Assembly: GCA_041504365.1 (NCBI GenBank)
Contig: CP167917.1
Coordinates: 2,108,001-2,172,000 of the forward strand
DNA: 64,000 bases
Direction of reading: 5' to 3'
Source of the DNA: Dryocola sp. LX212
GTDB lineage: Bacteria > Pseudomonadota > Gammaproteobacteria > Enterobacterales > Enterobacteriaceae
Shown: in pieces, positions 6,590 to 17,740 of the stretch
Position numbering within the stretch: position 1 is the stretch's first letter
How the letters are laid out: each line of letters begins with the position of its first letter
Made by a program: the position numbers and the translations under genes
Notes under the pieces: generated by a model
The model's database searches: none
What the model was told of the DNA's origin: nothing
Seen by the model: only the letters and a program-made list of their open reading frames with translations

Positions 6590-7756
6590 TTATACGGGCT
6601 GTTCGATTTTCAGCCCCGCGCGACGGGCGGTGGCGGGCAAAATGCTGGCGATAGCAACGTAGCCGTCCGGATCGAGGCAGCGGTCATTTTCACGGGCACG
6701 TTCGATAATGTCTTTGTCCCAATAAAGGCGTTTGCGCTGGTCGCCTTTGGTGGTCAGGATTGCCTCCATTACGCCGTCGGTGGCGCGGTAGCGACGCCAG
6801 CTGCCGCCGGGCACGGAGATCACCGAACCTTCGGTTGCGACAATCGACACTTCCTCGCCCTGGCGGTTCCAGGTCACCTCCAGGGTGCCTTTAAACACCA
6901 TCAGCACCTGCGTTTCCGGGCAGCAGTGCAGGCCAACCAGGCAACCGTCCTGAATGCGCAGCCACTCAACGGAAAAACCGTGCGGGTTAACGATAGCGGG
7001 CGCGCTGTTGCGATCCTGGGAGATGCCGAAGCCGATAACCGGAGCGATTTCACCGCCGTGGCCGGGCAGAACCGCATCCAGCAGCCCATCGCGGGACCAC
7101 TGACGCTGCTCACCCGTTACCGCGCGGCGGCTCATCTCATCTACGGAATAATCCCGCAGCGCAGCGATCTGCTCCGGGGCAAGAGGCTGTAGCCGCTCGC
7201 TTTCCGCCGGTACCGGCGCGCCCGCCTCAACGTCAATCAGCATATTATCCCGGCTGAGATACAGGCCGTATTCGCTGGCCGCGTCCAGAATCGACGGGTG
7301 CCAGATTATTCCGCCAGTGTTGTCGCCGCCGAGCACGGTAAAGACCATGCCGCTGGTGTCCTGCGGGCTGACGTTGGTAAAGCCGCGGAAAATCCACGTC
7401 GGGATCGACAGAATTGCCGGAGCGCTGAACTCTGCCTCATGCTCGCCGTTCGCCCCCCAGCGGAAGCGCCAGCTCCCTTCATGAATAAGGAACACTTCGG
7501 CGGTGAAGTGCAGATGGAGGTTATTCGTCACGCCTTTGGGCATGGCGGCCGCGCCAATATTAAAGCCGTGGGCTTCAGGAATGTTCACCACCTGCGAGGC
7601 GGACTGGGTGACGCCCGGCCCGATAAACGAATAATTCTGCTTGAGGTGTGAACCCGGCAGCTTGCAGTCGATAAACGCCACGCTGCATGAAACCCGGTCT
7701 TCCGGAAGCACGAGACGGCGGCGCGCCTCTTCCTGAGTCAGTGTTACGTATTGCAT
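6590..7756 (-). CDS. Bicupin-domain protein, possible dioxygenase or isomerase
   Basis: A 388-residue protein that appears to hold two cupin barrels. The first, near residues 30-170, has the metal-type motif NNLHLHFTAEVFLIHEGSW. The second, near 230-350, has GCLVGLHCCPETQVLMVFKG and ends in a SVISVPGGSWRRY strand. I chose ATG 7756 because AAGGAG sits seven bases before it; the reading frame stays open upstream to 8122, but that part lies inside the aldolase gene. Bicupins include gentisate, quercetin and homogentisate-type dioxygenases as well as isomerases. Histidines are present in both motifs, so metal binding is plausible, but I do not recognise the substrate. It is the last gene of a leftward operon, 10 bases after the aldolase gene. 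Confidence 0.8.
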   Translation of the reverse strand: MQYVTLTQEEARRRLVLPEDRVSCSVAFIDCKLPGSHLKQNYSFIGPGVTQSASQVVNIPEAHGFNIGAAAMPKGVTNNLHLHFTAEVFLIHEGSWRFRWGANGEHEAEFSAPAILSIPTWIFRGFTNVSPQDTSGMVFTVLGGDNTGGIIWHPSILDAASEYGLYLSRDNMLIDVEAGAPVPAESERLQPLAPEQIAALRDYSVDEMSRRAVTGEQRQWSRDGLLDAVLPGHGGEIAPVIGFGISQDRNSAPAIVNPHGFSVEWLRIQDGCLVGLHCCPETQVLMVFKGTLEVTWNRQGEEVSIVATEGSVISVPGGSWRRYRATDGVMEAILTTKGDQRKRLYWDKDIIERARENDRCLDPDGYVAIASILPATARRAGLKIEQPV

Positions 7757-7766
7757 GTTGTTCTCC

Positions 7767-8558
7767 TTAATAGCCTGAAGAGCCGCTTGCGGACGGCGTT
7801 TCGCCGCGTGCATAAGCCACGGCCTCGCGGGACGCGCGGCCAAGCTGCATGACGTCATTGGCGGGGGTAACAAAAGAAAAGCCTTCTGCCAGACGCTTTG
7901 CGGCGGCCTGGCCGGAGGTACAGAAGATACCGGCGACTTTGTTATGCGCCCGGCTGCGGGCAACGACGAGCTCCACGGCGGCCAGCATTTTCGGGTGCTG
8001 TGATTCGGCGCTGGCGCTGCCGGTGAGGGTAAGCGAGAGATCGTTGGGGCCGATAAACACGCCGTCCAGCCCGTCGGTGGCCAGAATCGCGTCAAGATTG
8101 TCCAGCCCCTGCTGGGTTTCAATCATCGCCAGCGTCAGGATCTCTTCGTTGGCATACTGCGGATAATCTTTACCGCCGTAGAGCAGGGCACGCGCGGGGC
8201 CGAATGAGCGGTTACCCAGCGGCGGATAGCGGCAGGCGGCAACAAACTGCTGCGCCTGCTCAGGCGTGGAAACCATCGGGCAGATAATGCCCCAGGCACC
8301 GGCGTCCAGCAGCCGCATGATCTGCGCGGGATCGTTGCTGTTCACCCTGGCAAGCGGCGTGGCCGGGGTAGCGGAAATGGCCTGCAGCATGGCGAGTGCG
8401 CTGGCAAAGTCGATCATGCCGTGCTGCATATCAACGGTGACGGAATCGTATCCCTGATGACCAGCGATTTCAGCGCTGTAGCCGGAAGGGATGGCCAGCC
8501 AGCCGTTAATCACCGGCTGCTGCCGGCGAAAGGCCTCTTTAAGCGAATTTTTTCTCAT
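7767..8558 (-). CDS. HpcH/HpaI-family class II aldolase
   Basis: A 263-residue TIM-barrel aldolase of the 4-hydroxy-2-oxoheptanedioate (HpaI)/citrate-lyase-beta fold. Expected residues are present: His46 (VDMQHG), Arg71 (LARVNSND), metal ligands Glu147 (AMIETQQGLDNLD) and Asp173 (GPNDLSL). The family retro-aldol reaction splits a 4-hydroxy-2-oxo acid into pyruvate (or oxaloacetate) and an aldehyde, using a divalent metal. Its start overlaps the hydrolase stop (ATGA), so translation is coupled. In this locus it is the probable carbon-carbon cleaving step, but the substrate cannot be read from sequence. Confidence 0.88.
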   Translation of the reverse strand: MRKNSLKEAFRRQQPVINGWLAIPSGYSAEIAGHQGYDSVTVDMQHGMIDFASALAMLQAISATPATPLARVNSNDPAQIMRLLDAGAWGIICPMVSTPEQAQQFVAACRYPPLGNRSFGPARALLYGGKDYPQYANEEILTLAMIETQQGLDNLDAILATDGLDGVFIGPNDLSLTLTGSASAESQHPKMLAAVELVVARSRAHNKVAGIFCTSGQAAAKRLAEGFSFVTPANDVMQLGRASREAVAYARGETPSASGSSGY

Positions 8559-9274
8559 GCTTGTGACTCCTTGATCCAGACCCGCAGGGCCGTGGCAACC
8601 CAGTCAGGGGCTTCCAGCGGCAGAAAGTGGCCGCTATCTGAGTGGGTTAACCAGCGTGCGGTTTTAGCCGCTTCGGCGGCGAGCTGGTGATGTTGTGGGG
8701 TACAAATGGCGTCATGCGCGCCGTTGAGGATTAACGAAGGTCTGCTGAACGCTGCCAGGGGTGCACGGTGGTCGGCGCGGGAAATTGCTATTTCTGTTTG
8801 TCGGGAAAAGGTTTCGATGCCGGACTCGTCAGCCATGGTCGTGATAACCGAATGCAATCCAGCATCGTCCAGATGCCCCGGCGCGACGTACTTCTGCCAC
8901 ATCTTTTCGCTCACCCAACGTTCGGCACCCAGTGCCTGCGCTTCAGAAACTGCCGCCCGCCGACCGACGGCGTTAGCGGGCAAATCCGCAAGTGGATTCA
9001 CCGAGAGCAGGGCCAGCCCGGCAATCCGCTCCGGGGCGTCGGCCAGCAGTTGCAGCGCGACCATAGCGCCAAGGGAAAACCCCGCCACACAGAAGCGCGG
9101 TGGCAAAGTCACGAGCAGACGGGAAGAAAGCTCCCGCGCGGAATCTGCGCCGCTGGTGACAATGCTGGTTACGTGGCTGACGCGAAGCCGTTCGATGACC
9201 GGCTGCCACAGGCGGTGGTTGCACAGCGTGCCACCCAGCAAAATCAGCGGTGTGTCGTGATTATCCAACATCAT
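8555..9274 (-). CDS. Alpha/beta-hydrolase
   Basis: A 239-residue single-domain alpha/beta-hydrolase. The nucleophile elbow GFSLG places the catalytic serine at residue 67; the acid is probably Asp188 (NGAHDAICTP) and the histidine His216 (SDSGHFLPLE). The N-terminal LILLGGTLCNHRLW carries the oxyanion-hole glycines. There is no signal peptide, so it is cytoplasmic. It resembles enol-lactonase or ester-hydrolase type members, which would suit opening of a lactone formed by a dehydrogenase. ATGA overlaps join it to the SDR gene upstream and the aldolase downstream. Confidence 0.82.
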   Translation of the reverse strand: MMLDNHDTPLILLGGTLCNHRLWQPVIERLRVSHVTSIVTSGADSARELSSRLLVTLPPRFCVAGFSLGAMVALQLLADAPERIAGLALLSVNPLADLPANAVGRRAAVSEAQALGAERWVSEKMWQKYVAPGHLDDAGLHSVITTMADESGIETFSRQTEIAISRADHRAPLAAFSRPSLILNGAHDAICTPQHHQLAAEAAKTARWLTHSDSGHFLPLEAPDWVATALRVWIKESQA

Positions 9275-10035
9275 GTCGCCGTCCAGCCTCCGTCCACCAT
9301 CAGCGCGGAGCCGGTGATCAGCGCCGCTGCCGGAGAGGCCAGAAACACCACCGGCCCCATGACGTCTTCGATCGTTCCGAGCCGCCCGAGCTTAATATTG
9401 TCCAGCACATAGCTGCGGAACGACGGGTCGGCCAGGTTTGTGCGGGACAGCTCGGTCGCAATAAACGTCGGACACAGCGTATTCACCCTGATCCCCGCGT
9501 CCCCCAGTTCAAGCGCCATAGTTTTGGTCAGCCCCTCCAGCGCGAACTTTGAGGCGCAGTAAACGCTGCGCGCCGGGCCGCCGACGTGCCCCATCTGGGA
9601 GGAAATATGAATAACGGATCCGGCAATACTGCTCTCTTTCATCCGGCGGGCAACCTGCTGGCTGAGAAAGAACGTCGCCCGCAGGTTGAGCGCCATTACC
9701 GCGTCGTAGTCCTCTTCACTGACCTCCAGAAAAGGCCGGTGACGCGCCAGGCCCGCGCTGTTGACCAGAACGTCGAAGGCGGGCAGCCCGGCAAGCGTCT
9801 CACGGACCTGATGCGTATCGGTGATATCCAGCGTGACGGGATGCAGCCGCAGATCTTCCTGCGCGGCTGCATTGGTCGCTTTGCGAAGCTGTGCTGCATC
9901 GCGGGCGATAATCCAGACCTCCGCCCCGGCCCGCGCCAGCGCAACGGCCGCCGCGAAACCGATACCGCGTGAGCCGCCCGTGACCAGCGCCCGACGGTTA
10001 TCGAGTCGGAAATCAGGGGTGCGGGGAAGGCTCAT
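9271..10035 (-). CDS. Short-chain dehydrogenase/reductase
   Basis: A 254-residue classical SDR. The cofactor motif TGGSRGIG lies at residues 19-26; the catalytic set is Ser146, Tyr159 and Lys163 (YCASK); NSAG lies near residue 92. The C-terminal half has the usual RVNTLCPTF and TGSALMVDGGW segments. I took ATG 10035, which overlaps the HisD-like stop by one base (TGATG); the frame is open further upstream but lies within that gene. It should oxidise or reduce an alcohol/ketone with NAD(P) in the pathway encoded by this operon. Confidence 0.87.
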   Translation of the reverse strand: MSLPRTPDFRLDNRRALVTGGSRGIGFAAAVALARAGAEVWIIARDAAQLRKATNAAAQEDLRLHPVTLDITDTHQVRETLAGLPAFDVLVNSAGLARHRPFLEVSEEDYDAVMALNLRATFFLSQQVARRMKESSIAGSVIHISSQMGHVGGPARSVYCASKFALEGLTKTMALELGDAGIRVNTLCPTFIATELSRTNLADPSFRSYVLDNIKLGRLGTIEDVMGPVVFLASPAAALITGSALMVDGGWTAT

Positions 10036-11366
10036 CAGCTTGCCTTCGCCACGTCGACGGGAGGCACCGACCCCGCGTAAGGCACGTCCATGTTGCCGTA
10101 GCGGCGCACACGAATATTGGCCTGCTCGGCGTGACCGGAGAAACCCTCCAGCTGGCAGAGGCGGGAGCAGTAGCTGCCAATCTCCGTGGAGGCTTCGTCG
10201 GTAAGCACCTTCTGGAAGGTACAGGTTTTCATAAACTTGCCGACCCACAGGCCGCCGGTATAGCGCGCTGCTTTTTGCGTCGGCAGGGTGTGATTAGTGC
10301 CGATGACCTTATCGCCGTAGGCCACGTTGGTGCGCGGCCCAAGGAACAGCGCGCCATAGTTGGTCATGTTTTGCAGGAACCAGTCATCGCGGTCGGTCAT
10401 AACCTGCACGTGCTCAGAAGCAATGCGGTCAGCTTCCTGAAGCATCTCTTCGTAGCTGTCGCAGACGATAATTTCGCCGTAGTCGCGCCACGCCTGGCTG
10501 GCAATTTCTGCAGTTGGGAGGCGGGTGAGAAGGCGCTCGACTTCGCGCAGCGTCTCCTGGGCAAGCTTCATGGAATTGGTCAGCAGAATAGCGGGGGTGG
10601 TGATGCCGTGTTCGGCCTGGCCCAGCAGGTCCGTGGCGCAGATTTCTCCGTCTACGGTCTCATCGGCGATGACCAGCGTTTCGGTCGGCCCGGCGAACAG
10701 GTCGATGCCCACGCGTCCGAACAGCTGGCGCTTGGCTTCCGCCACAAAGGCATTGCCCGGCCCGACCAGCATGTCTACCGGCTGCAGGGATTCTGTCCCC
10801 AGCGCCATTGCGCCAATCGCCTGAATGCCGCCCAGCGCGTAAATCTCGGTTGCGCCAGCCATCGCCTGTGCCGCCACAATCGCCGGAGCGGGCTGGCAGT
10901 GGAACGGCGGGGCGCAGCTGATGATGCGCGAACAGCCCGCTACGTTTGCGGTGATGATGGACATATGGGCCGATGCCAGAAGCGGGTACTTACCGCCGGG
11001 GACATAGCAGCCGACCGAGTTAATCGGAATGTTTTTATGGCCGAGGATCACGCCAGGACGCGTTTCCACCTCCAGATCCAACAGGCATTTTTTCTGCTCG
11101 CTGGCGAAGTTAAACACCTGCTGCTGGGCGAATTCGATATCTTTTATGTCCTGGCGGCTCAGCTGTTTAATACAGCTGTTAATTTCAGACTGCGACAGGC
11201 GATAATCCTGGCGGTCGTAATTATCAAACTTAATTGACAGCTCGCGAATAGCGGCGTTCCCGCGCTGTTCAATATCGGCGAGGATATTTTCAACGGTCAT
11301 GCTCACCTGTTTATTTGCCTGCTGGCGTTCAGATAAAGATTTACTGGTTTTTAAATACTGCGCCAT
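10035..11366 (-). CDS. Histidinol-dehydrogenase-like alcohol dehydrogenase (first copy)
   Basis: A 443-residue member of the HisD fold. The zinc and catalytic residues of HisD are all present at fitting spacing: Gln250, His253, Glu318, His319, Asp352, His359 and His412. It is not next to any his gene and has the GTNHTLPT variant typical of catabolic HisD homologues such as the sulfopropanediol dehydrogenase HpsN. The family oxidises a primary alcohol through an aldehyde to a carboxylate with two NAD. I chose ATG 11366 (GGAG upstream) over the upstream in-frame starts. A paralogue lies at 16433-17740 on the other arm of the locus. Confidence 0.86.
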
Positions 11367-11449
11367 GATGTTCTCCATGAATATTTTGCGAGTCTGTCCC
11401 ACCCGACTGAACGGGAGGAAAACTCTTTTTATGAAAGTAGGGTGGTAAA

Positions 11450-12700
11450 TTAAATTTTGTTGCCGTAATCCTGTGCCGGAGCCAGATTATTTGTTTCCGC
11501 TATGGCGTCGGGCTTTTTATTCTGCCGCTGATTTACGCTACGAACCGCTAACGGAGTTAATACCGCCGCCAGCAGGCACAGGCCTGAAATGAATAGATAG
11601 CCGGAGGATAAATTAATATGCTGCAGCATCACCCCCATTAATACCGGCCCGGCAAACATCCCGCAGGAGTAAATGGTCTGGAACAGGCCCATGCGGGTGG
11701 ACTGCTCGTCCTCGACGGTGTTGACCACGCTCAGGGACATAAAGACCGCGAACGCCATCCCGAAGGAGAAGCCGCCCACGGATTGTAGCAGGTAGATCAG
11801 GTACATATTGCTGGTGAAAGGCACGCCAAGCGTCGAGACGAGCTGAAGCATAATGCCGATGACGGCGGTGTTCGCCAGGCCTAAACGCTTATAGAACACC
11901 GAGCTGCACAGGGCGATAGCCAGCGCGTAGAAAATCAGGTGCAGGTTGCTCAGCAGGGTCAGAATGCCCGCTTTAGCCCCGAGCTGCTGGGCATATATCG
12001 GCGTCAGGGTATCGCGCGTTGCAAACGGCACCAGAATTACAATGGTCGCCAGCAGGCCGATAAACCACACGGAGGAGTCGCCCAGCTGGCGTTTAGCGCT
12101 GGTAACGCAGGCCCTGAGGGTTGGCGCGAGGGCGGCATCATGAAACTCCTTAATGTGGAAGGTCAATATCAGCGCCAGCAGCGCCGCAACGCTTGAAACG
12201 AAGTAGCCGATGCTTTTATCAAAGAAGTGGATAAGCGTCCCGCCGATACAGTTCCCCAGAAAGACGCCCAGCGGCCCGGCAAGCGCCAGCAGGGCAACGG
12301 CAGCAGGCGCGTCTTTCCGATCGAAGTAGCGAATAAACAGGATGTTATAGAGCACCCAGGTGGCCGCCGTGAAGCCGTCGGCAGCCTTGGCGAGGTAGAG
12401 CGTAACGGCGGTTGGTTCAAAGTAAGCGATGGGCCAGGTCACCAGCGGCAGCAGCAGGCTGACCTGAATAAATATCTTACGGCTCTTTACCACGTCCGAA
12501 AGAATGCCGATGGGGAAGCGAACGAGCAGGGTAGCCAGGCCGCTGGCACCCATGATCATGCCGACCACTTCGGGCTGCATGCCTTCGCTGATCAGCATCG
12601 GTGCCAGAAAGGCGTCAATGCTGTGGATACAGATGAAGAACAGGACGCTGATGGTGAAAAACAGCCTGACTTCGGATCGATTAAATAGTGCACGAAACAT
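11450..12700 (-). CDS. MFS transporter of the accessory catabolic locus
   Basis: A 416-residue major facilitator with about 12 hydrophobic helices, a short N-terminus and a polar C-tail after helix 12 ([13 protein letters not shown]). The helix 2-3 loop reads [15 protein letters not shown], a good match to the MFS loop motif. It is first in the leftward operon, 83 bases before the HisD-like gene, and starts 367 bp from the divergent LacI gene with two palindromes between them. By position it is the importer for the substrate of this pathway. I cannot assign it to a substrate-specific subfamily. Confidence 0.85.
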
Positions 12701-12816
12701 GGTGGTGAACCTCTAAAATTAATGGGTTATAACCAATCAAGTACGGCATAAACCGGTTCAATCCTTTGGCTGAGACTCCTGTCCCCGGTAAAAACTGACG
12801 GCGTTTTTGCACTGCA

Positions 12817-12830
12817 TGCATACGTATTCA
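12817..12830. promoter_or_regulatory. Candidate LacI-type operator 1
   Basis: TGCATACGTATTCA is an imperfect palindrome built on the perfect core ATACGTAT, located 117 bases upstream of the MFS start. It matches the second site (12906-12919) at 12 of 14 positions, so the pair probably binds the adjacent LacI-family protein. Confidence 0.55.
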
Positions 12831-12904
12831 AAAATGAAAGTTACGAAAAGGTTTCAATTTTGTAAAGGGTAGGATTGTAAATGTGAAAAAAATAATATTG
12901 CCTG

Positions 12905-12920
12905 TTGCATACGCATGCAA
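12905..12920. promoter_or_regulatory. Candidate LacI-type operator 2
   Basis: TTGCATACGCATGCAA has perfect six-base arms TTGCAT/ATGCAA and lies 88 bp (centre to centre) from operator 1. The spacing and shared sequence suggest cooperative binding or looping by the divergent regulator. Confidence 0.55.
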
Positions 12921-13066
12921 AGATGGTGTAAGACTTAAAAACAGGCATTCTGGCGAGCGGAAAAAGGGCCACGCTGGCAATCCCCTCGCGGTCCGTTACA
13001 CTGATGCAACGCCTTGTTTTCACGTAAGATGCATCGTGGCGGGAATGTTGATAAGGAACAGCGACA

Positions 13067-14137
13067 ATGAAACGTAAGACTTTTGGACCCGTGACCTCGC
13101 AGCAGGTGGCGCAGATCGCGGGAGTGTCACAATCGGCGGTGTCCCGCACGTTCACGCCTGGGGCCAGCATTTCGCCGGCCACGCGTGAAAAAGTGCTGAA
13201 AGCGGCGCGGGAGCTGGGCTACCGGCCAAATGCTATCGCGCGGTCGCTGAATACCGCTCGTTCACGCATTGTCGGCGTGGTGATGTCCTATTTTGACAAC
13301 CAGTTTTACCCGCAGGTGCTTGAGGCGCTGGCGCAGAAGCTTGATGAGCTGAACTACCACCTGCTGCTGTTCGTGGGCGACCGCGACGGCAACGTGGACA
13401 GAATTTTTGACCAGATCATGCAGTACCGGGTAGACGGCATCGTGCTGGCGTCCGTTTCGCTATCCATTGAATTGTCGGAAGAGTGCCTGGCCGCTGGGAT
13501 CCCGGTGGTGCTGTTTAACCGCGACGATGAGAACGGCATAGTTTCCAGCGTCAACACGGATAACAAAGCCGCCGCATGCCAGATAGCCGAGTTTTTACTG
13601 GCCGGTGAGCACCAGCGCTTTGCCTATGTTGCGGGGATTGCCGATTCATCGGTAAACGTTGCGCGCCAGAGCGGGTTCGTCAGTACGCTGCGGTCGAAAG
13701 GCGTCGAGGATATCCGGGTGGTGCAGGGTAATTACAATGCGCAGCAAACCAGCCGCGCCGCCCGGGAGCTTTTCTCGTCACCGCAGCCGCCGGACGCCAT
13801 CTTTGCGGCCAATGATCATATGGCCTTAACCGTGATGGATATCGCCCGCTACGAGTTCGGCCTGCGTATCCCCGACGATTTGTCTGTCATCGGCTACGAC
13901 GACACCGGCCCGTCCGGCTGGCCATCCTACGCGCTGACCTCCGCCTCGCAGCCGGTGGACGAGATGGTCAGCGCCACGGTGGCGCTGCTGATGAAGCAGA
14001 TAGAAAGTGAAAACATCGAACCCGAACAGCTGGTGGTCAAGGGGGCGCTGATTGTCCGCCACTCTGCGCGCCGCCCACGCTCAGGCGTAATCGAAAAAGA
14101 CGGATTGTCTCTGTTCCAGCCGCAGGAGGTTGAATGA
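13067..14137 (+). CDS. LacI-family transcriptional regulator of the accessory locus
   Basis: A 356-residue LacI/GalR regulator. The helix-turn-helix TSQQVAQIAGVSQSAVSRTF is followed by the hinge helix region (YRPNAIARSLNTARS) and a periplasmic-binding-protein-like effector domain (about 65-335). The start is ATG 13067, after AAGGAA. Its stop overlaps the start of the first tandem-SnoaL gene (ATGA), so regulator and enzymes are co-translated. It most likely controls both arms through the palindromes at 12817 and 12905 and responds to a pathway substrate or intermediate; the effector is unknown. Confidence 0.92.
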   Translation: MKRKTFGPVTSQQVAQIAGVSQSAVSRTFTPGASISPATREKVLKAARELGYRPNAIARSLNTARSRIVGVVMSYFDNQFYPQVLEALAQKLDELNYHLLLFVGDRDGNVDRIFDQIMQYRVDGIVLASVSLSIELSEECLAAGIPVVLFNRDDENGIVSSVNTDNKAAACQIAEFLLAGEHQRFAYVAGIADSSVNVARQSGFVSTLRSKGVEDIRVVQGNYNAQQTSRAARELFSSPQPPDAIFAANDHMALTVMDIARYEFGLRIPDDLSVIGYDDTGPSGWPSYALTSASQPVDEMVSATVALLMKQIESENIEPEQLVVKGALIVRHSARRPRSGVIEKDGLSLFQPQEVE

Positions 14138-15105
14138 CCAGGTTGCCGGGCTTTAGCCCTCAGTTTGATTCCATACAGCAGTTTATTCTGACGCTGACCC
14201 ACGTGGTCTGGGAGCAGAAGGACATCGGCCAGCTCGCGGATTTTTACGCCACGCCGGTGGTCTTCCACACGCCTGAAAAGCAGCTGAACGATCTTTCCGG
14301 CTTTATGCGCCTGACGCTTGAGGCCATGCACAGCTTCCCGCAGCGCACGGTGCTGACAGAAGATATTCTGACCACCCACACGCCGGAGTTCGAGTATTAT
14401 GCGGCACAGCGCACGCTGGCCTGCATTCAGCACCAGGGTGAAGGCTTCTTCGGTAAACCTAGCGGCAAGGCGGTTTGGGTCCGCACCTGGGCTGACCGGG
14501 TATGTGCCGATGGCGCAGTGCGGCAGGAATGGCTGCTGCAGGATCGCGCGGCGATTGTCTCGCAGATTGGCCTCAGCGCGCGCGATTTTGCGTTACAGCT
14601 GGCGACGGCCCGTCAGGAGCTGGGGCTGGAGAATACCTCCGCCGAGGAGATGGACGCGCGCTGGGCAGGTGGCCCGGAAGGCGACGATGTTGACGGCCCG
14701 CTGGCCGGGCTCGTTGAACGCTATCTCTCTATGTGGGCCGGGGGTAACAGCGGCGTGGTACCGGGGCTTTATCATCCGGCGGCTACCTTCCACGGTCCGG
14801 CGCACGTGCTGCGCACCGGCGAGCAGGATATTGGCGCGTTTCTCTCGGGCTACCGGGCTTCCTTTGCCGACAGCGAAACGCAGCTGCACCATCTTATTGT
14901 CCGCCGTGACGCCAACGAACCCGTGCGCCTCTCCCTGCGCTGGTCGCTGTTAACCTGGCACGACGGCTATGGCCGATTCGGCGCGCCGACGCGTCGGCCG
15001 ATCTCTATTACCGGCATCAGCCAGCTGGAACTGCGAGACGGATTAATTATCCGTGAATATCTGGGCATTGATGAGTTAGCTATCTGGTCACAAATATTTA
15101 ATTAA
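14134..15105 (+). CDS. Tandem SnoaL/NTF2-like protein A
   Basis: A 323-residue protein made of two SnoaL-like (NTF2 fold) units. The first (about residues 8-150) runs from FILTLTHVVWEQKD through FGKPSGKAVWVRTWADR to VRQEWLLQD. The second (about 185-320) runs from VERYLSMW through FGAPTRRPISITGISQ to LIIREYLGIDELAIW. Each ends in the same strand pattern of a hydrophobic strand, a charged turn and an IREYLGIDEL-type helix. SnoaL-fold proteins include polyketide cyclases, isomerases, hydratases and non-catalytic ligand binders. The function here is unknown. It is translationally coupled to the LacI gene and is a distant paralogue of the next protein. Confidence 0.72.
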   Translation: MTRLPGFSPQFDSIQQFILTLTHVVWEQKDIGQLADFYATPVVFHTPEKQLNDLSGFMRLTLEAMHSFPQRTVLTEDILTTHTPEFEYYAAQRTLACIQHQGEGFFGKPSGKAVWVRTWADRVCADGAVRQEWLLQDRAAIVSQIGLSARDFALQLATARQELGLENTSAEEMDARWAGGPEGDDVDGPLAGLVERYLSMWAGGNSGVVPGLYHPAATFHGPAHVLRTGEQDIGAFLSGYRASFADSETQLHHLIVRRDANEPVRLSLRWSLLTWHDGYGRFGAPTRRPISITGISQLELRDGLIIREYLGIDELAIWSQIFN

Positions 15106-15110
15106 GTCTG

Positions 15111-15129
15111 CGGGGGATAGCTCCCCCCG
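15111..15129 (+). terminator. Hairpin after tandem SnoaL gene A
   Basis: GGGGGA and TCCCCC form a strong six-base stem with a four-base loop six bases after the stop, followed by AT-rich sequence without a real T-run. It may partly terminate transcription or act as a processing or stability element between the two SnoaL genes. Confidence 0.45.
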
Positions 15130-15289
15130 AATAAATAAAGCCCGTGTAAATGATAATTTATTTGTCAGGGGCTGCTGTTGCCTGGATTCTGAAAACAAAC
15201 TGTCACTATTTGCAGGCGAGGGGTAATTACATCCCGAATACAGTGCGCCGGGAAATTTCTCAGTGCATCCATCGAACGCAGGAGGTTAT

Positions 15290-16429
15290 ATGTCATCAAC
15301 TGAAGCGACAAATAAAACGCCGGTAGTAGCTGAGAAAACCAATACTAAATCCACTCGCGATGAGCCTGTATTACAGGTTGAGCGCCGTGACTTTGTGGAT
15401 TTAGTTCCAGAAAAACGTCCCCGCGTACAGTCATTAAGAGGATTTGACGACTGTTATACCGATATTGTGGATTATATCGTGCGCTGTACGCATAAAATAT
15501 GGGACGAGCGCGACGTGGGTTTAATTTACTCACACTACACGCATAACTGCGTTTTATATAACGCGCTGGGCACCATGTATAACCGCGAGCAGGTCGTGCA
15601 GGATACGTTGCAGCGCCTGATTGCCTTCCCGGAGCGCCGTGGTATGGCGACCCAGGTTATCTGGAACGGTAACGACGTTGACGGTTTCTACACCTCGCAC
15701 CTGGTAACCGGCACCGGTCGTCATACGCAGTTCAGCCATCTGGGCAAGCCGACGAACCGCACCTTTGTAACCCGCACCGTAGCGGACTGCATGATCCACG
15801 AGAACAAAATCTACCGCGAGTGGGTGGTCAGCGACAACATGGCGATGATGCGCCAGCTTGGCCTGGATACCGACGCGGTGGCGTATGGCATGGCGAAAGA
15901 GCAGTTTGATAAGGGCTTCCGCGTGACCGATATCGGCGAGAACCGCCGCATGGTAGGTCAGTATCCACCGGAAATGGAATGTGACGTTTCCATCGCCCAT
16001 ACCGACACAGAAGAGCAGTGCCTGCGCTGGCTGCATGAGATCTACAACCGCCGCATGCTGGGCAAAATCAAAGACGTGTACGCGACCAACGTCCAGTGGC
16101 ACGGCCCGCTGATGAAAGAGCTGTACGGCCAGGCGGCGGTGATCCACCAGACGCTGGCGCTGATTGGCATGATCCCGGACGGCGCGTGGCTGCCGCAGCA
16201 CGTCTGCTCCAACCCGTGCGAAGAGGGCGGTACCAAGGTCGCGGTACGCTGGATTATGGAAGGTCACCACCTGGGCTACGGCGAGCTGGGCAAACCAACC
16301 GGCGAACGCCTGTTCGTGATGGGCATGTCCCACTACCACATCGTCAACGGCAAAATCGTCGATGAATGGGTCGTCTACGACCACCTGGCGCTGCTGGCGC
16401 AAATCAAACTGGGTCAAATGGAGGAGTAA
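15290..16429 (+). CDS. Tandem SnoaL/NTF2-like protein B
   Basis: A 379-residue protein with a polar, low-complexity N-terminus (about residues 1-50) and two SnoaL-like units. Unit one (about 60-210) contains IVRCTHKIWDERDVGLIY, HLGKPTNRTFVTRTVAD and YREWVVSDNMAM. Unit two (about 245-375) contains LHEIYNRRMLGKIKDVY, YGELGKPTGERLFVMGMSH and VDEWVVYDHLALL. The repeated [GL]GKPT and EWVV-D motifs show an internal duplication, and the same architecture occurs in protein A. The start is ATG 15290 with AGGAGG six bases before it. It lies three bases before the second HisD-like gene. The enzymatic role is unknown; a cyclase, isomerase or hydratase role is only a family-based guess. Confidence 0.75.
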   Translation: MSSTEATNKTPVVAEKTNTKSTRDEPVLQVERRDFVDLVPEKRPRVQSLRGFDDCYTDIVDYIVRCTHKIWDERDVGLIYSHYTHNCVLYNALGTMYNREQVVQDTLQRLIAFPERRGMATQVIWNGNDVDGFYTSHLVTGTGRHTQFSHLGKPTNRTFVTRTVADCMIHENKIYREWVVSDNMAMMRQLGLDTDAVAYGMAKEQFDKGFRVTDIGENRRMVGQYPPEMECDVSIAHTDTEEQCLRWLHEIYNRRMLGKIKDVYATNVQWHGPLMKELYGQAAVIHQTLALIGMIPDGAWLPQHVCSNPCEEGGTKVAVRWIMEGHHLGYGELGKPTGERLFVMGMSHYHIVNGKIVDEWVVYDHLALLAQIKLGQMEE

Positions 16430-16432
16430 GAG

Positions 16433-17740
16433 ATGGGCGCAATCAGTGAAGCAGACGTGCAGTTTCTTAAACGCCCGCAGGGGCAGGACGCGCAGGCGGA
16501 CAGGACGCTGACGGACACCGTTCATAACATTATCGAACAGGTAAAGACGCGAGGGGACGCCGCGCTGCGGGACTTTTCGGCGAAGTTTGATAAAACCGTG
16601 CCGGACAGCTTTGAAGTATCGGCAGACGAGATCAAAGCGGCACTGGCGGATCTCGACCCGCAGACCCGCAGGGACAGCGAGTTTGCCATTGCCCAGGTGA
16701 AGCGGTTTGCCCAGGCGCAGCTGGCAACCATGAAGCCGCTGGAGGTGGAAACGCTGCCTGGCGTGCATCTGGGGCACCGCATTATCCCTATCGAAAAGGT
16801 CGGCTGCTACGTGCCGGGCGGGCGCTATCCCATCTTGTCCGCGCCGGTGATGTCCATAGTGCCGGCCGTGGTGGCAGGCTGTGACGAGATTATTGCCTGT
16901 CTGCCGCCGGGCGCGCATCCGGCGATGATCGCCGTTTGCCACCTGGCCGGGGCGCACCGAATCTTTAAGGTCGGTGGTGCGCAGGCGATTGCCGCCATGG
17001 CGTGGGGCACGGAGTCCGTGCCGGTGGTGGATAAAGTTGTCGGGCCGGGCAACGCCTTCGTCAACGAAGCCAAGCGCCAGGTATTTGGTAAGGTAGGAAT
17101 TGACGCCCTGGCAGGCCCGAGCGAAATCTACGTGATTGCTGACGACAGCGCGAATCCGCAGATATTAGCCGCCGACCTGCTGGCGCAGGCGGAGCACGAC
17201 GTTCATACACGCGTAGGCATGGCGACGACCAGCGAGCGTATCGCCAGCGAAACCCTCAGCGAAATCGAACGCCAGCTCAAAACGCTGCCAACGGCGGTAA
17301 CGGCGGGGGAAGCGTGGCGACGTCAGGGCGAGATTGTGATTTGCCGCGATGAGGAGCAGCTGATTGCATGGGCGGACCATATGGCAACGGAGCATCTCCA
17401 GGTCCATACCCGCGATCCGCACGCCACGGCGAGCAAAATCCGCAACTACGGCTCACTGTTTATCGGCCAGAACGCAAGCGTGGTTTTCTCTGATAAATGC
17501 TGTGGCACCAACCACACGCTGCCAACGATGGCCGCCGCGCGCTATACCGGTGGTCTGTGGGTGGGCGCATACGTGAAGATCTGCACGCATCAGTGGATTG
17601 ACGACCACGGCATCGCGGCGATTGCGGAACCGGCGATTCGCCAGAGCCGTACCGAAGGCATGCAGGCGCACCGCCGTGCGGCAGAAATTCGTTTACGTCC
17701 GGATGAAATTGAAGGGATCACGGGCGGCAAGCGGGATTAA
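16433..17740 (+). CDS. Histidinol-dehydrogenase-like alcohol dehydrogenase (second copy)
   Basis: A 435-residue HisD-fold protein with Gln252, His255, Glu320, His321, Asp354, His361 and His413 in the positions of the HisD zinc and catalytic residues. Like the first copy it has GTNHTLPT and no his-operon context, so a catabolic alcohol-to-acid oxidation is likelier than histidine synthesis. The gene starts three bases after tandem-SnoaL protein B with GGAGGAGTAAGAG upstream. The two copies differ clearly in sequence, suggesting two successive oxidations or two substrates rather than a recent duplication. Confidence 0.86.
   Translation: MGAISEADVQFLKRPQGQDAQADRTLTDTVHNIIEQVKTRGDAALRDFSAKFDKTVPDSFEVSADEIKAALADLDPQTRRDSEFAIAQVKRFAQAQLATMKPLEVETLPGVHLGHRIIPIEKVGCYVPGGRYPILSAPVMSIVPAVVAGCDEIIACLPPGAHPAMIAVCHLAGAHRIFKVGGAQAIAAMAWGTESVPVVDKVVGPGNAFVNEAKRQVFGKVGIDALAGPSEIYVIADDSANPQILAADLLAQAEHDVHTRVGMATTSERIASETLSEIERQLKTLPTAVTAGEAWRRQGEIVICRDEEQLIAWADHMATEHLQVHTRDPHATASKIRNYGSLFIGQNASVVFSDKCCGTNHTLPTMAAARYTGGLWVGAYVKICTHQWIDDHGIAAIAEPAIRQSRTEGMQAHRRAAEIRLRPDEIEGITGGKRD

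Follow-up and report, generated by a model that had tools for sequence, protein, structure and literature searches.

The closest described relatives of the system reported here are histidinol dehydrogenase (HisD) and HpsN, the HisD-like dehydrogenase of 2,3-dihydroxypropanesulfonate (DHPS) encoded in hpsRNOUP-suyAB clusters, which is treated in the available portions of PMC11382572 and PMC11131964. According to the available portion of PMC11382572, His126 of HpsN serves in sulfonate recognition and is conserved within the motif G-R-Y-A/S-H, and the HpsN set was restricted to genes with hpsO and hpsP as neighbours. The window, a stretch of 64,000 nucleotides from Dryocola sp. LX212, contains at positions 6590..17740 a locus with two HisD-like genes (HisD-a and HisD-b) and two genes for tandem SnoaL proteins (SnoaL1 and SnoaL2). 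The locus resembles the HpsN system, as far as that system is described in the same portion of PMC11382572, in the HisD fold, the Zn ligands, the Glu-His pair, Asp352 and Lys353, as well as in having a major facilitator superfamily (MFS) importer and a short-chain dehydrogenase/reductase (SDR) as neighbours. In contrast to hpsRNOUP-suyAB, it lacks His126 and has neither an HpsP-type medium-chain dehydrogenase/reductase (MDR) nor a sulfolyase among its ten genes, the rest of the genome not having been searched for one, while SnoaL duplexes, a bicupin, an amidase and an aldolase are additions of the present system.

Our reading of the locus, which we hold to be rather probable, is that it belongs to an inducible, horizontally spread catabolic regulon, with small polyols or hydroxy acids that bear an amide as the candidate substrate class. 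This reading starts from four things seen directly in the sequences, namely: the distribution of an operator, the company that the genes keep, the protein families and the conserved residues. The locus consists of ten intact open reading frames in two divergent operons, with two putative operators between them:

6590..7756, minus strand: bicupin, with H81, H83 and E87 in the N-terminal cupin
7767..8558, minus strand: HpcH/HpaI class II pyruvate-type aldolase (PF03328, E 9e-37)
8555..9274, minus strand: alpha/beta hydrolase, distantly PcaD-like (PF00561; PcaD models below cut-off)
9271..10035, minus strand: SDR oxidoreductase (PF13561, E 5e-58)
10035..11366, minus strand: HisD-a, HisD-fold dehydrogenase (PF00815, 457 bits; motif GKYPL and DK)
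11450..12700, minus strand: MFS transporter, taken as an importer (PF07690)
12817..12830, no strand: putative LacI-type operator 1, TGCATACGTATTCA, conserved in the aligned MFS-LacI gap
12906..12919, no strand: putative LacI-type operator 2, TGCATACGCATGCA, conserved in the aligned MFS-LacI gap
13067..14137, plus strand: LacI-family regulator (PF00356 and PF13377)
14134..15105, plus strand: SnoaL1, tandem SnoaL protein (PF07366, PF12680)
15290..16429, plus strand: SnoaL2, tandem SnoaL protein and hallmark of the group, labelled 'ester cyclase' in annotated records (PF07366)
16433..17740, plus strand: HisD-b, HisD-fold dehydrogenase (PF00815, 470 bits; motif GRYPI and DK)

The original prediction, made from the letters of the window, had placed ten genes in two divergent operons here, and profile matches uphold the families that it named for all ten. 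Its four start/stop overlaps are read in the sequence as ATGA at the aldolase/hydrolase, hydrolase/SDR and LacI/SnoaL1 junctions and TGATG at SDR/HisD-a; the bicupin start is 7756, a small correction, while HisD-a probably starts at 11366 and SnoaL2 probably at 15290, after a GGAGG. The setting that it gave, between clcB and osm genes, likewise holds, with ClcB at the left and a ProV/OsmF-type betaine ATP-binding cassette (ABC) transporter at the right, and the set had been said to be missing from E. coli, of which a megablast search of 5,426 genomes yields no match to the locus.

The gap between the MFS and lacI genes was aligned for the window and 29 other loci, and it holds the two conserved palindromes TGCATACGTATTCA at 12817 and TGCATACGCATGCA at 12906. 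With zero mismatches, TGMATACGNATKCA is found at three places in the 4.7-Mb genome: these two operators and a site at 1831544-1831557, which ends 13 bp upstream of the start of an amidase gene (C1:1831571-1832884) lying 290 kb from the locus. Since this unlinked gene bears the same operator, the description of the locus as self-contained fails; on the evidence of the shared site, locus and amidase are probably under one regulator. A palindromic operator that stands before the member genes and is rare elsewhere is what the sequences present here, as would be expected of a LacI regulon. In 17 cluster genomes, picked mostly for having no amidase adjoining the cluster, TGMATACGYATKCA occurs inside the cluster and at four places outside it, all before an amidase gene (G149, G151, G153 and G156; by their coordinates, G149 is the assembly also labelled G065, and G151 the one also labelled G019), and its reversed control occurs in none of the 17. 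Genome G050 has a site 91 bp before its amidase gene, which sits about 8 kb away on the same contig. In G056, G032 and G041, whose amidase gene comes immediately after that for HisD-b, no site was found near it. Among 149 genomes of the family, the motif is present in 8/8 with SnoaL2 orthologs and in 4/141 without them (G016, G023, G060 and G114, at five places), and the reversed motif in three (G023, G045 and G143).

Operator matches extend beyond the Enterobacterales. The relaxed motif TGNATNCGNATNCA has 100 matches in the 1,126,159 bases of 56 non-enterobacterial loci, 39 of which have at least one, and the reversed pattern has none in the same loci. Ninety-three of the 100 sites precede a cluster-query gene by no more than 300 bp (12.5% for random positions) and one lies inside such a gene; matches are also found on plasmids of Deinococcus and Priestia. 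A stricter form of the motif is present in 20 of 28 genomes or records, with all sites on one contig and within a span of at most 14 kb in 19 of the 20. The exception is Devosia psychrophila (G183), which has an extra site before unlinked aldehyde and alcohol dehydrogenase genes; these genes are within the cluster in three other loci. An aldehyde and alcohol dehydrogenase pair is seen within some alphaproteobacterial clusters (L078:6598-9206, L087:6547-9218, L081:12626-15147 and L226:6268-8883).

To examine the company kept by the genes, species genomes were scanned with SnoaL2, and 117 stretches were found to encode relatives. The best 80 of the 117 were kept and split by record title into 31 Enterobacterales loci and 49 others, mostly from Alphaproteobacteria; locus L034, titled Chryseobacterium, was counted with the Enterobacterales, its layout matching that of L036 (Citrobacter sp. 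18056). It should be noted that all loci were picked for SnoaL2, so that the counts, made by tblastn, describe company and not frequency. LacI, SnoaL1, SnoaL2 and HisD-b are each encoded in 31/31 of the Enterobacterales loci and the MFS protein in 30/31, followed by the aldolase (28), the SDR and the hydrolase (27 each), the bicupin (26), HisD-a (25) and the amidase (16). Among the other loci, 38 span 21 kb or more; for these, the counts are LacI 37, HisD-a 35, HisD-b 33, bicupin 29, SDR 28, amidase 28 and hydrolase 27, and 31 have both HisD types; RraA (20), MetE-like (13) and HpaI (6) genes are also found there, and the RraA and MetE-like genes gave no substrate identity. The gene set is present in Alphaproteobacteria in reshuffled order. 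Gene order thus varies by lineage and the flanking genes vary by enterobacterial genus, which fits transfer as a unit. Because the set is found again in different genera and classes, its assembly exceeds chance, and the expectation that its genes co-occur outside this strain is borne out; the locus is a coherent unit that probably serves catabolism.

Eight of nine annotated plasmid records examined hold the set wholly or partly by tblastn. It is found in records of Sinorhizobium medicae, Novosphingobium, Roseibium, Alloyangia, Martelella and Pantoea dispersa, and in distant versions on plasmids of Deinococcus and Priestia filamentosa. The Sinorhizobium medicae stretch has no HisD-b, and its HisD-a is unannotated and matches in two pieces (L104:5365-6653).

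The unlinked amidase is 64% identical to that of Pantoea dispersa, and its gene lies between what we take to be cobB and potD; two weaker matches (40% and 38%) are found elsewhere in the genome. In relatives, the amidase gene is frequently within the cluster or bears the operator. Among the 149 family genomes, SnoaL2 orthologs (at least 83%) are found in 8, HisD-b (at least 82%) in the same 8, and the amidase at E <= 1e-60 in the same 8 (at least 55%) plus G133 at 39%, while HisD-a at E <= 1e-120 is found in these 8 plus G086 and G087.

The host genome, of 4,702,617 bases, has three PF00815 genes, namely: the standard hisD (G000:C1:2938408) and those for HisD-a and HisD-b. In a residue survey of 55 HisD-a and 65 HisD-b cluster sequences, using HpsN numbering, the Zn ligands, Glu318, His319, Asp352 and Lys353 are kept in 120/120, save that the last Zn His is gapped in three HisD-a rows. 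At the position of His126, every one of the 120 has Leu, Ile or Met and none has His. HisD-a and HisD-b are like HisD in fold, Zn ligands, catalytic residues and a Pro-Leu at the HpsN His position; they differ from it in a Lys next to the Zn Asp, where the host's own HisD has Tyr, and in forming clades separate from E. coli HisD and the host's own. The tree comprises 52 sequences (14 of the 55 HisD-a, 14 of the 65 HisD-b, and plasmid, stand-alone and reference sequences) and is rooted on the HisD proteins of E. coli and the host. All non-root sequences form one group with a support of 0.98, which leaves HisD-a and HisD-b outside the clade of E. coli HisD. HisD-a groups as sister to HpsN with a support of 1.0, and HisD-b is a clade of its own, supported at 1.0 without the Priestia copy and at 0.86 with it; one Deinococcus copy remains unplaced (0.14). 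The clades and residues suggest two further HisD-like groups with other substrates.

SnoaL1 is confined to the Enterobacterales loci of the set (31/31 vs. 0/49 of the others). In SnoaL2, structure comparison assigns the SnoaL fold to both halves. The domain, supported by PF07366 and these fold matches, is common to the polyketide cyclases and hydroxylases SnoaL, SnoaL2, AclR and KstA15; the present protein differs from them in being a duplex, in its probably catabolic setting and in having marginal sequence matches to solved members of the fold. A version of the cluster on a Deinococcus sp. QL22 plasmid (L110:12995-16793) has four adjoining 'ester cyclase' genes, one of them short.

For the bicupin, H81, H83 and E87 form what we take to be the H-x-H-x3-E metal motif. 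Its structure model (predicted local distance difference test score 85.8) resembles bicupins generally, and the match is uninformative on chemistry because vicilin seed proteins rank equal to oxalate decarboxylase; the fold searches with SnoaL2 and the bicupin thus gave a fold class and indicated no reaction. The aldolase is closest among solved groups to the HpcH/HpaI aldolase 8adq/6r62 (217 bits). It shares family and full-length similarity with HpaI, GarL and hydroxyketoacid aldolase, but stays below every equivalog cut-off listed in NCBIfam, scoring 190, 154 and 150 bits with the models of HpaI, GarL and rhamnonate aldolase (cut-offs 369, 407 and 441). HpaI and RraA never co-occur in the 26 of 38 other loci that have one of them, as would be expected if either enzyme could make this cut; common descent is another possible explanation.

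If the HisD-like enzymes were HpsN itself, the locus would degrade the C3 sulfonate DHPS. The top PDB matches of both proteins are in fact DHPS dehydrogenases, HisD-a has its place beside HpsN, Lys353 is retained, and the SDR is of HpsO's Pfam family. Of the neighbours that define the HpsN set in the available portion of PMC11382572, however, the locus has the PF13561 SDR and, among its ten genes, no MDR (hpsP), and the His126 reported there as conserved is absent from all 120 cluster copies, which makes sulfopropanediol unlikely as the substrate. DHPS catabolism was set aside on this residue test, and we regard it as very improbable. A biosynthetic or tailoring cluster, with the SnoaL proteins acting as in anthracycline polyketide pathways and the MFS protein exporting what is made, is also most unlikely. 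The polyketide cyclases or hydroxylases among the SnoaL fold neighbours would suit it, but the ten genes include no synthase or carrier gene, and relatives use either a CUT1 ABC importer with a binding protein or a TonB receptor with an MFS protein, to which Roseibium adds genes for a tripartite ATP-independent periplasmic (TRAP) transporter. In addition, relatives repeatedly include an HpaI- or RraA-type aldolase. Polyketide tailoring was set aside for its missing biosynthetic genes and the recurrent import systems.

Two further explanations are unlikely to a lesser degree. The locus could join two merely neighbouring modules, one for an organic acid (HisD-a, SDR, cupin and aldolase) and another made up of SnoaL2, HisD-b, amidase and importer. 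Some HisD-a homologues do stand alone with LacI and permease genes, loci L034 and L036 keep one half and genome G086 mostly the other, and the Roseibium and Alloyangia records have two LacI genes each; against this, the same operator stands on genes of both halves in many Devosia and sphingomonad loci, and both HisD types are together in most of the full-length other loci, as counted above. We consider such a pairing possible but doubtful. About as doubtful is a known catabolic pathway that was described outside the open-access papers searched or under other enzyme names: the set is common, and someone may therefore have encountered it already, yet a full-text search of open-access papers with the enzyme names combined found none on the gene set, in line with the earlier statement that no described pathway with exactly these genes was known. 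In NCBIfam, SnoaL1 and the bicupin match no model and SnoaL2 matches one only below its cut-off; the aldolase, the hydrolase and the MFS protein reach no equivalog cut-off.

Several findings weigh against a single catabolic regulon. HisD-a is absent from 6/31 Enterobacterales loci, one of which (L045) is a 4.9-kb contig; L024, L027 and L051 are others without it. L034 and L036 carry only MFS, LacI, SnoaL1, SnoaL2 and HisD-b, all five left genes being absent, and in genomes G065 and G068 the sole HisD-a is a copy of 72-73% encoded on a separate contig. In G086 the left genes occur with a distant SnoaL2 and no HisD-b at E 1e-120, and the Phaeobacter record has only relatives of SnoaL2, the transporter and LacI, without HisD, SDR or aldolase. 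The operator is likewise not universal, since 17/56 non-enterobacterial loci have no match and 8/28 genomes or records lack the stricter motif. The NCBIfam model TIGR00069 (hisD) matches HisD-a and HisD-b at 436 and 456 bits, above its cut-off of 243.8, so that both are plain HisD by that model. Finally, the amidase is present in 7/17 and absent from 10/17 cluster genomes, a set biased by its selection, and is therefore linked but optional or replaceable.

Some of these loci have features of their own. L034 and L036 have genes for a peptide-type ABC transporter and a D-Ala-D-Ala dipeptidase at the expected place of the left half. The G086 arrangement (L157:3943-9893), in which bicupin, aldolase, hydrolase, MFS and SDR genes adjoin a 31% SnoaL2 relative without HisD-b, is a sister system. 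L024 and L027 have the cluster without HisD-a, and a 73% homologue is on another contig in G065, the same assembly as L024.

Under the catabolic regulon that we favour, the LacI repressor would hold the two MFS-lacI operators and that of the unlinked amidase shut until an inducer arrives, and the MFS protein would bring the compound in. The subsequent chemistry is proposed by analogy with the protein families. HisD-a and HisD-b would each carry out a four-electron oxidation of a primary alcohol to a carboxylate, beside a zinc-chelating OH or NH2, like HisD and HpsN; the conserved catalytic residues point to this alcohol-to-acid step. They would represent a new specificity class that retains the Lys and has Leu, Ile or Met in place of the sulfonate-recognizing His. 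The amidase would split an amide, releasing a carboxylate or an amine, and the SDR would form a keto group. A proton-transfer, hydration or aldol-type step may fall to the SnoaL duplex, and cleavage of an ester, a lactone or a C-C bond to the alpha/beta hydrolase. The metal-dependent aldolase, HpaI here and RraA in other lineages, would make a late retro-aldol cut. The order of these steps and their products, among them the pyruvate of the original prediction, are as tentative as the substrate itself. Pantothenate, pyridoxine, kojic acid, iminosugars, mycosporines, apionate and methylerythritol came into consideration as substrates, and no claim is made for any of them. That the steps add up to a complete undescribed pathway by which a common environmental compound is broken down, spread over at least three phyla and including two new HisD-fold substrate classes, catalytic SnoaL duplexes and one conserved operator, has in our view an even chance.

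The gene set is so widely kept that its substrate must often be met by soil, plant and marine bacteria, and it seems to be a transferable set, common to very different bacteria, for breaking down a natural compound. The operator defines the regulon and finds its missing parts, as with the amidase, and it makes the question of function open to a simple reporter screen. In the plasmid records examined and by NCBIfam, the HisD-like genes are labelled 'histidinol dehydrogenase'.

Five HisD-a homologues (72-74%) lie outside the cluster. Three of them are between LacI and permease genes (L152:7358-11376, L153:7757-11783 and L155:1096-5112), one has a LacI gene only (L156) and one has neither (L154). 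The likeness of the adjacent permease to GntP is weak, with one sub-cut-off match for two proteins scanned, and in Roseibium the TRAP genes adjoin HisD-a. The HisD-a substrate may be an organic acid; 3,4-dihydroxybutanoate, the carboxylate analogue of DHPS, is only a guess. The module of LacI, HisD-a-like and permease genes is perhaps the simplest place to find this substrate, and those of L152 and L153 carry a related operator, TGCATTCGAATGCA.

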